From: Haloprofundus halobius
GTDB lineage: Archaea; Halobacteriota; Halobacteria; Halobacteriales; Haloferacaceae
Direction: 5' to 3'
DNA: 64,000 nt
Assembly: GCF_020097835.1 (NCBI RefSeq)
Contig: NZ_CP083666.1
Span: 930,001 to 994,000 of the forward strand
Part shown: piece by piece, positions 31,455 to 62,232 of the stretch
Layout: each line of letters starts with the position of its first letter
Numbering within the stretch: the first letter of the stretch is position 1
The notes under the pieces: model-generated
The model's database searches: none
Told to the model about the DNA's origin: nothing
The model's input: the letters and a program-made list of their open reading frames with translations, nothing else
Made by a program: the position numbers and the translations under genes

Positions 31455-31528
31455 CCGCTCTTAGCTCAGCCTGGCAGAGCAGCCGACTGTAGATCGGCTT
31501 GTCCCCCGTTCAAATCGGGGAGAGCGGA
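31455..31528 (+). tRNA. tRNA-Tyr (anticodon GTA)
   Basis: 74 bases. Acceptor CCGCTCT pairs with AGAGCGG, discriminator A. The anticodon stem-loop GCCGACTGTAGATCGGC gives anticodon GTA. The T-arm is CCCCGTTCAAATCGGGG. No CCA is encoded and no intron is seen. Confidence 0.97.
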
Positions 31529-31934
31529 CTGAACTTCAGCACTAGTGAGCGAAGCGAATCTGTGCTGAATGTGAAGGACTGCTCTCCTGCGAACGAAGTG
31601 ACCAGTAACACGTCCATCTCGACCCGATTTGAGCAGGGAGGTGAGCAAGCGGAGCGAGCGAACGGGAACGACCGAGTTCAAATCACCGTGACTTCGCTTT
31701 CGCTCGTCACGAGCCCTCGTTCGCTTCGTCTGCGGACGGCCCGAAAGTCGTCCGCACGGCCTGCGCGACCTTCGGTCTCGCTTCGCTCACGAGGACGGGG
31801 CGAGCGGACATCCACCGCGAGTAGCGGAGTAACCACCCGACAGATAGCCGCCGAGAGTGGCATCCCGACCGTTTCGAGTCGTGCTTCCGACCCGAATCGC
31901 CGTCGTTTACCCGATGGACGGACGACTCTCGCCG
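31529..31934. other. Degenerate module downstream of tRNA-Tyr with T-arm copies
   Basis: No gene is supported in these 406 bases. Within 31576-31690 the order is CTGCTCTCCTGCGAACGAAG, CCCGATTTGAGCAGGGAG (an inverted copy of the tRNA-Tyr T-arm TCAAATCGGG), a run rich in GCGGAGCGAGCG, and GAGTTCAAATCACCG (a direct copy). TTCAGCAC (about 31533) and GTGCTGAA (about 31562) can pair as another hairpin. A matching module follows tRNA-Lys at 61972. Possible remnants of integration at the tRNA, or a functional post-tRNA element; neither is proven. Confidence 0.6.
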
Positions 31935-61897: not shown

Positions 61898-61971
61898 GGG
61901 CCGGTAGCTCAGTTAGGGAGAGCGACGGACTCTTAATCCGTCGGTCGGGGGTTCAAATCCCTCCCGGCCCG
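61898..61971 (+). tRNA. tRNA-Lys (anticodon CTT)
   Basis: 74 bases. Acceptor GGGCCGG pairs with CCGGCCC, discriminator G. The anticodon stem-loop GACGGACTCTTAATCCGTC gives anticodon CTT. T-arm GGGGGTTCAAATCCCTC. No CCA encoded. Confidence 0.97.
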
Positions 61972-62110
61972 TTTTCCTGCAACGAAGTGAGCAGTGAAAA
62001 CGCCACGAAGGGATTTGAATCAGGGAACGGAGCGTAGCGGAGTGACCGTGGTTCAGATCCCGTCGGTTCGTTCGCTTCGCTCACTCCCCGACGACGTTCG
62101 CAAACGCTTC
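61972..62110. repeat. Module downstream of tRNA-Lys with T-arm copies
   Basis: Order after the tRNA: TTTTCCTGCAACGAAGTGAG, then AAGGGATTTGAATCAGGGA, an inverted copy of the tRNA-Lys T-arm TTCAAATCCC, then GGAGCGTAGCGGAGTGACCG, then TGGTTCAGATCCCGTCGG, a direct copy. The same order follows tRNA-Tyr at 31576-31690. It is non-coding. Confidence 0.65.
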
Positions 62111-62232
62111 GCGTTTGCTCACTCCCTCCCAACCCGCTTCTCGAATTTCACGTCTCGGAGCGACCGGCTTGCAGACGAAACGCCTCGAAACTTTTTGCTC
62201 CTCCCCGTCGACTCCCCCACGGGTGACCCCTC

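Follow-up and report, generated by a model that had tools for sequence, protein, structure and literature searches.

The DNA that follows the tRNA-Tyr(GTA) gene of the window (the whole 64,000-nt stretch analysed here) is, judged by its sequence, a worn member of a class-wide repeat family that sits on the 3' ends of haloarchaeal tRNA genes. The ends of the repeat units follow each tRNA, their cores travel, and their arrays grow and shrink between sister species. It is established that units are gained and lost precisely at nt 73 of the tRNA, that the T-loop is an exchange boundary, that the arrays have a polarity and that cores are common to several tRNAs. Several scenarios may explain these properties. 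The one that we prefer, with a confidence that stays somewhat short of even, is that the units are non-autonomous hairpin cassettes that are inserted at tRNA 3' ends via the T-loop by an enzyme provided in trans. Whatever their origin, the units shape many haloarchaeal tRNA neighbourhoods and can mislead the annotation of att sites and partial tRNAs. They also provide, in Haloferax, a tractable archaeal model for small-cassette recombination or tRNA trailer function.

The units behind tRNA-Tyr and tRNA-Lys

The window is a segment of a haloarchaeal chromosome (G000:C1:930001-994000) that includes an archaeal rRNA operon (Rfam). The discriminator base of tRNA-Tyr is 31528 and its nt 53-73 correspond to 31508-31528. 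The following features were recognized at this locus:

31455..31528, + strand: tRNA-Tyr(GTA), host of the array (ARAGORN, whose call spans 31455-31529; Rfam RF00005)
31530..31576, + strand: hairpin 1, immediately 3' of tRNA-Tyr (arms 31535-31542 / 31562-31569)
31577..31586, + strand: GACTGCTCTC, remnant of an inverted tRNA-Tyr acceptor end (8/10 to GTCCGCTCTC)
31587..31605, + strand: CTGCGAACGAAGTGACCAG, remnant of a second hairpin 1 (from the sequence; compare L063)
31623..31634, + strand: inverted T-arm copy CCCGATTTGAGC, complement of tRNA-Tyr nt 54-63
31635..31675, + strand: hairpin 2 core, containing GCGGAGCGAGCG, a relative of the GGGAG..GAACGGGAACGACCG core family
31676..31684, + strand: direct copy, part 1, GTTCAAATC, nt 53-61
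31685..31795, + strand: hairpin-rich insert of 111 nt that splits the direct copy after nt 61
31796..31808, + strand: direct copy, part 2, CGGGGCGAGCGGA, nt 61-73 (repeat search)

The motifs that the initial annotation had reported behind tRNA-Tyr were all recovered at their positions, in the sequence itself and by the repeat search. Regarding the direct copy, that annotation had seen the GTTCAAATC part and missed its continuation past the 111-nt insert, so the 21-nt copy, which is the more striking feature, was left incomplete: CGGGGCGAGCGGAC, at 31796-31809, duplicates CGGGGAGAGCGGAC from the end of tRNA-Tyr. The repeat search of the window also shows that 31504-31524 is complementary to 31618-31638 (21 nt, 81%); taken alone, the inverted copy of the window is a strong but short match. 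The remnant of a second hairpin 1 shows the locus to be a composite of two units. Behind the tRNA-Tyr of the sister genome G001, hairpin 1 is near-identical and the inverted acceptor end is almost whole, and homologues of the 111-nt insert are found behind tRNA-Tyr in both G001 and G003.

The window contains a second unit, in which the order of the parts is the same as behind tRNA-Tyr:

61898..61971, + strand: tRNA-Lys(CTT), host of the second unit (ARAGORN, Rfam)
61972..62000, + strand: hairpin 1, TTTTCCTGCAACGAAGTGAGCAGTGAAAA
62010..62019, + strand: inverted T-arm copy, GGGATTTGAA
62020..62049, + strand: hairpin 2 core
62050..62061, + strand: direct copy of tRNA-Lys, first part, GGTTCAGATCCC
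62123..62136, + strand: direct copy of tRNA-Lys, end, TCCCTCCCAACCCG, past a hairpin insert (repeat search)

The inserts at 31685-31795 and 62062-62122 belong to a second kind of hairpin insert, which splits the direct copy within the T-arm and is also seen at L232 and L478. Examples of such inserts, which recur at several tRNAs, are GTTCGCAAACGC-TTCG-GCGTTTGCTCACTCCC and GACCCTCGC-hairpin-GCTCGGTCCC. Downstream of the tRNA-Ala of the rRNA operon of the window there is no arrangement of the kind found behind tRNA-Tyr and tRNA-Lys.

Anatomy, cognate match and distribution

The general anatomy of the units was read from the 46 tRNA genes of the window genome and their downstream DNA. Units are present behind approximately one third of these genes; they begin immediately 3' of the tRNA, measure ~75-165 nt, contain no gene and are filled with hairpins. 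The typical unit is made up of a T-rich stretch with hairpin 1, an inverted T-loop (nt 54-63), a structured core and a direct copy of nt 53-73, in this order. The direct copy is ~98% identical to the tail of the cognate tRNA and has sharp edges: in 190 copies, the identity per position is 0.93-1.00 over nt 53-73; at nt 51 it has dropped to background, and at position +1 past the tRNA end it is ~0.6. The inverted copy spans nt 54-63 and is cognate-specific at nt 57 and 62-64, and a trace of an inverted acceptor, faintly cognate, is left as well.

The comparison of the inverted T-arm with the adjacent tRNA, which the initial annotation had proposed, favors the cognate match: the score of the inverted copies in 165 units is 5.62, as against 4.84 +/- 0.07 when the tRNA labels are swapped, and none of 2000 permutations reaches it. 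Similarly, none of 5000 shuffles of the tRNA labels reaches the match observed for the direct copies of the window genome, and the tails match the cognate tRNA in 177 of 278 cases and a non-cognate one in 14 of 278, in a sample that was partly selected by pattern. The copies also change together with their tRNA. Where tRNA-Tyr has TTCAATT for TTCAAAT, or an altered acceptor end, the direct copy changes alike and the inverted copy often does so (L078, L087 and L076, across genera). The T-loops of G063 are often TTCGAAT, and a known core is flanked in this genome by GGGATTCGAA and GGTTCGAATCCC (L502). The suggestion that the tract belongs to an unrecognised repeat family tracking its tRNA is thus strongly supported by the cognate positions of the inverted copy and by the direct copy of nt 53-73.

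Of 145 Halobacteria genomes, 114 contain a strict pattern, GGATTTGAA-N22-52-GGTTCAAATCC, and these represent 49 of 58 genera; examples of carriers are Haloarcula, Halorubrum, Natrinema, Halobacterium and Haloferax prahovense. When genomes were drawn from across the phylum, 30 of 40 Halobacteria had the pattern, as against 0 of 157 Halobacteriota outside this class, and the reversed control pattern had zero matches in every genome scanned. The family is nearly confined to Halobacteria. Among 30 sampled matches, 29 are located 33-271 nt 3' of a tRNA on the same strand, and the remaining one is a displaced unit adjoining a tRNA-Arg remnant. One genome with no exact match to the pattern has tail copies behind 11 of its 30 tRNAs, some of them weak. 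Haloarchaeal intergenic DNA often contains loops of the GAGCGAAGCGAGC type, and the window has degenerate copies, as would be the case if the units were chance repeats in GC-rich intergenic DNA rich in GAGCGAAGCGAGC motifs. Nevertheless, the label permutations, the zero matches of the reversed control, the absence of the pattern from the related non-haloarchaea and the adjacency to tRNAs refute this explanation for the family.

No non-tRNA match near the gathering score was obtained with the covariance models of known RNA families (Rfam) at six unit-bearing loci, and no description of the units was found in the open-access papers searched. Two Woesearchaeota MAGs (DPANN) display the same unit layout behind tRNA-Ser (Ser-GCT in L254 and Ser-CGA in L301). 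Transfer, shared origin, convergence or a mis-binning of the MAGs may account for these units.

Gain, loss and exchange of units

Three genomes of the same genus have an intact copy (at least 17/22 matching) behind 15/45, 18/46 and 9/45 tRNAs, respectively, and orthologous tRNAs differ in this respect. The tRNAs Ser-GCT (L043) and Leu-CAG (L052) of G000, which abut a downstream ORF, lack a unit in all three sister genomes, and so does the tRNA-Ala of the rRNA operon. The comparison of sister genomes reveals clean filled and empty sites at Leu-CAA, Gly-TCC, Arg-CCT, Leu-TAG, Ser-CGA and Glu-CTC, and the trailer of the unit-free sister often restarts exactly past the direct copy. At Leu-TAG, an integrase element begins where the trailer does, which places the unit between the tRNA and the element. 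That is the arrangement in G000 (L050), whereas in G002 (L137) the element is found directly at the tRNA and the units beyond attR, a contrast that is helpful for the ordering of events.

tRNA 3' ends are classical docking sites for mobile elements, and the initial annotation had considered that the tract could be a relic of site-specific integration. The clean filled and empty sites with a duplicated tRNA 3' end agree with this proposal, but not in the form of relics of large elements. In these genomes, integrase elements are found behind tRNA-Gly, tRNA-Leu and tRNA-Glu. The tRNA copy at their far ends is longer (~43 nt where it is clearest) and is accompanied by neither an inverted T-loop nor a hairpin 2, and in G004 and G002 a unit array lies beyond attR. 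The units are therefore part of the native tRNA trailer and are displaced by the large elements. The units were accordingly ruled out as att sites of these elements, given the longer att blocks and the arrays outside attR. Direct repeats of the tRNA 3' end are a hallmark of ordinary large integrative elements (PMC8371274, PMC3119063), and the units could have been left by such elements after the loss of their cargo. Yet the intact elements differ in the respects just described, and neither the two-hairpin anatomy nor the cores common to units across tRNAs are accounted for, which makes this origin very improbable. Tyrosine-integrase elements at tRNAs (SNJ2, pR1SE, HF2-like prophages) resemble the units in their tRNA 3'-end direct repeat, clean filled and empty sites and intact tRNA; unlike them, the units are short and gene-free, with a 21-nt block, an inverted copy and no integrase.

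The content of the arrays varies between sister genomes (Ser-GGA). In arrays of at least two units, the tRNA-proximal copy is the better matched one in 28 cases and the worse in 3, decay being an indirect gauge of the insertion end. Exact tandem duplications of units exist in G128, G152 and G081. By clustering, one and the same core is found at several tRNAs, each time with a tail re-matched to the local tRNA. Hairpin 1 and the core have been swapped independently, with breakpoints at the T-loop copies. Wrong tails derived from other tRNAs would be the footprint of a recent jump; three nearly complete sets of tRNAs contained no clear example.

The strongest rival to the cassettes is replication-based template switching combined with gene conversion. 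The palindromic T-arm would be the site of template switching and slippage, and strong gene conversion in the polyploid haloarchaea would act alongside; these processes could create both copies and keep correcting them, duplicate units in tandem and swap cores, all in the absence of a dedicated enzyme. The alternation of inverted and direct copies, the near-perfect quasi-palindromes, the identical tandem duplications, the decayed outer copies and the faintly cognate part of the inverted acceptor would all be expected in that case. Nevertheless, mutation alone would not be expected to produce cores with a fixed orientation and internal loops conserved in sequence across many genera (A1). Moreover, the copy is always exactly nt 53-73, and the family is nearly restricted to Halobacteria, yet T-arms are universal. 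On balance, a replication or repair product seems somewhat unlikely.

Structure and possible mechanisms

In one core family, 22 sequences from different genera have 95.7% of their cells paired, and nine pairs changed on both sides represent 31 cells, as against 8.3 +/- 2.2 in shuffled data; these sequences share the pattern by which they were selected, which fixes the T-arm stem and not the covarying inner stem. Sliding the partner abolishes the signal. The cores also contain conserved unpaired motifs (GCGCGCAG / GAGCAC), and all units that were read face the tRNA in one orientation. The initial annotation had also considered a processing element, in which the inverted copy could pair with the tRNA T-arm; in predicted transcripts its main partner is the direct copy (0.76) and not this T-arm (0.22), and in predicted folds the sense strand is more stable than the antisense. 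Since the excess of G-U over A-C is weak, the strand bias would derive mostly from purine loops, and the covariation does not tell RNA from single-stranded DNA as the form in which the units work; the strand asymmetry was set aside as proof of an RNA role for the same reason. In the predicted folds of the tRNA with its first unit (139 units), the 5' acceptor strand pairs with the distal over the proximal tail copy (0.73 vs 0.06), which is probably an effect of the multiloop parameters.

The third explanation in order is a functional trailer RNA, co-transcribed with the tRNA, in which the two hairpins would be under selection for a role in termination, 3' processing or pre-tRNA stability. It would be congruent with the strong covariation of the stems, the predicted stability of the sense strand, the T-rich tracts that follow the tRNA and each copy (0.5-0.63 T vs 0.19 in the background) and the absence of units behind gene-abutting tRNAs such as Ser-GCT. 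Yet intact units occupy a minority of tRNAs that differs between genomes of a single genus, distal units decay, and the weak G-U excess leaves purine loops as the main source of the strand bias. We consider such a function improbable.

In the case of mobile cassettes, site-specific recombination through the 7-nt T-loop would move the units, with catalysis in trans by a putative tyrosine recombinase or a similar enzyme. New units would enter adjacent to the tRNA, whose displaced 3' end would turn into the direct copy, and old units would decay or be lost when the 21-nt repeats recombine with each other. The inverted T-loop and the core could constitute a folded or accessory recombinase site, comparable to the attC hairpins of integrons, and the ends might be matched to a new tRNA by correction within the hairpin or by core exchange between existing units. 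The exact copy of nt 53-73, the filled and empty sites, the polarity of 28 vs 3 arrays, the array content that varies between sisters, the sharing of cores and the separate swapping of hairpin 1 and core, the covariation of the inner stem and the adjacency to tRNAs count in favor of this scenario. Blocks of nt 53-73 extent were reportedly assigned to T-loop-type integration by Williams in 2002. A Haloquadratum prophage is flanked by a 22-nt tRNA duplication (PMC3119063).

Several points count against the cassettes. No dedicated recombinase is carried by or adjoins any unit, integrase counts from a generic PF00589 search are unrelated to the distinction between pattern-rich and pattern-poor genomes, the units are absent from the plasmids and phages searched, none was found as a viral attP, and a narrow pattern had no match in viral contigs. 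Clean empty sites can also be produced by deletion between direct repeats, so the present data do not separate the cassette, replication and trailer-RNA readings. In addition, double-stranded DNA would close only with difficulty into a circle of ~130 bp, and the recipient tRNA would be destroyed by a T-loop crossover with a unit that is not cognate, so that target switching would require an extra step. An unlikely extension of the cassette scenario is that tRNA genes serve as distributed insertion sites between which generic cores move, the T-loop arms and the 3' tail being written or corrected from the recipient. In that case, the arrays would be a chronological record behind each tRNA, which would resemble integrons and CRISPR arrays while being independent of both.

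The E. coli tyrT locus contains 178-bp repeats with the last ~19 bp of tRNA-Tyr (rtT RNA, Rfam RF00391). Like the units, these repeats are tandem, non-coding and located behind a tRNA gene, each with a copy of its 3' end; compared by description, they represent one enterobacterial locus, whereas the units are found behind many tRNAs in nearly all haloarchaea and have an inverted T-loop copy, two hairpins and cores common to several tRNAs. The units resemble integron arrays (attI/attC) in ending in an imperfect covarying two-stem hairpin, in their fixed orientation and in being most intact beside a fixed site; unlike in integrons, this site is a tRNA, and the units, too short and hairpin-filled, have no ORF. 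Integrons have been reported in 75 archaeal MAGs from nine phyla, with haloarchaea not mentioned in the text searched (PMC9668308). Finally, REP elements, MITEs and IS200-605-derived palindromes are also short, gene-free, hairpin-rich and dispersed but, by their descriptions, differ from the units, which are almost only behind tRNAs and have direct and inverted copies derived from their target. Since the units have neither an integrase nor an ORF, they are not classed as tRNA-nested integrative elements or as integrons; by analogy, they seem to work like a tRNA-targeted cassette.

Two broader searches for a viral attP retrieved other sequences. The TTCGAAT pattern mainly detected tRNA-Ser(CGA) anticodon arms, with one host-flank unit (L373), in 19 contigs inspected. 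A wider pattern matched 15 contigs, all unrelated, including palindromes from a Bifidobacterium provirus. A near-perfect long palindrome is found in Bifidobacterium chromosomes (L270, L273) and in probable proviruses from IMG/VR (L362, L363, L366, L367, L370, L372), and it is made up of two inverted copies of an apparent tRNA 3' half (GGATTTGAACCRTG..CAYGGTTCAAATCC-ATGCCCCGC).
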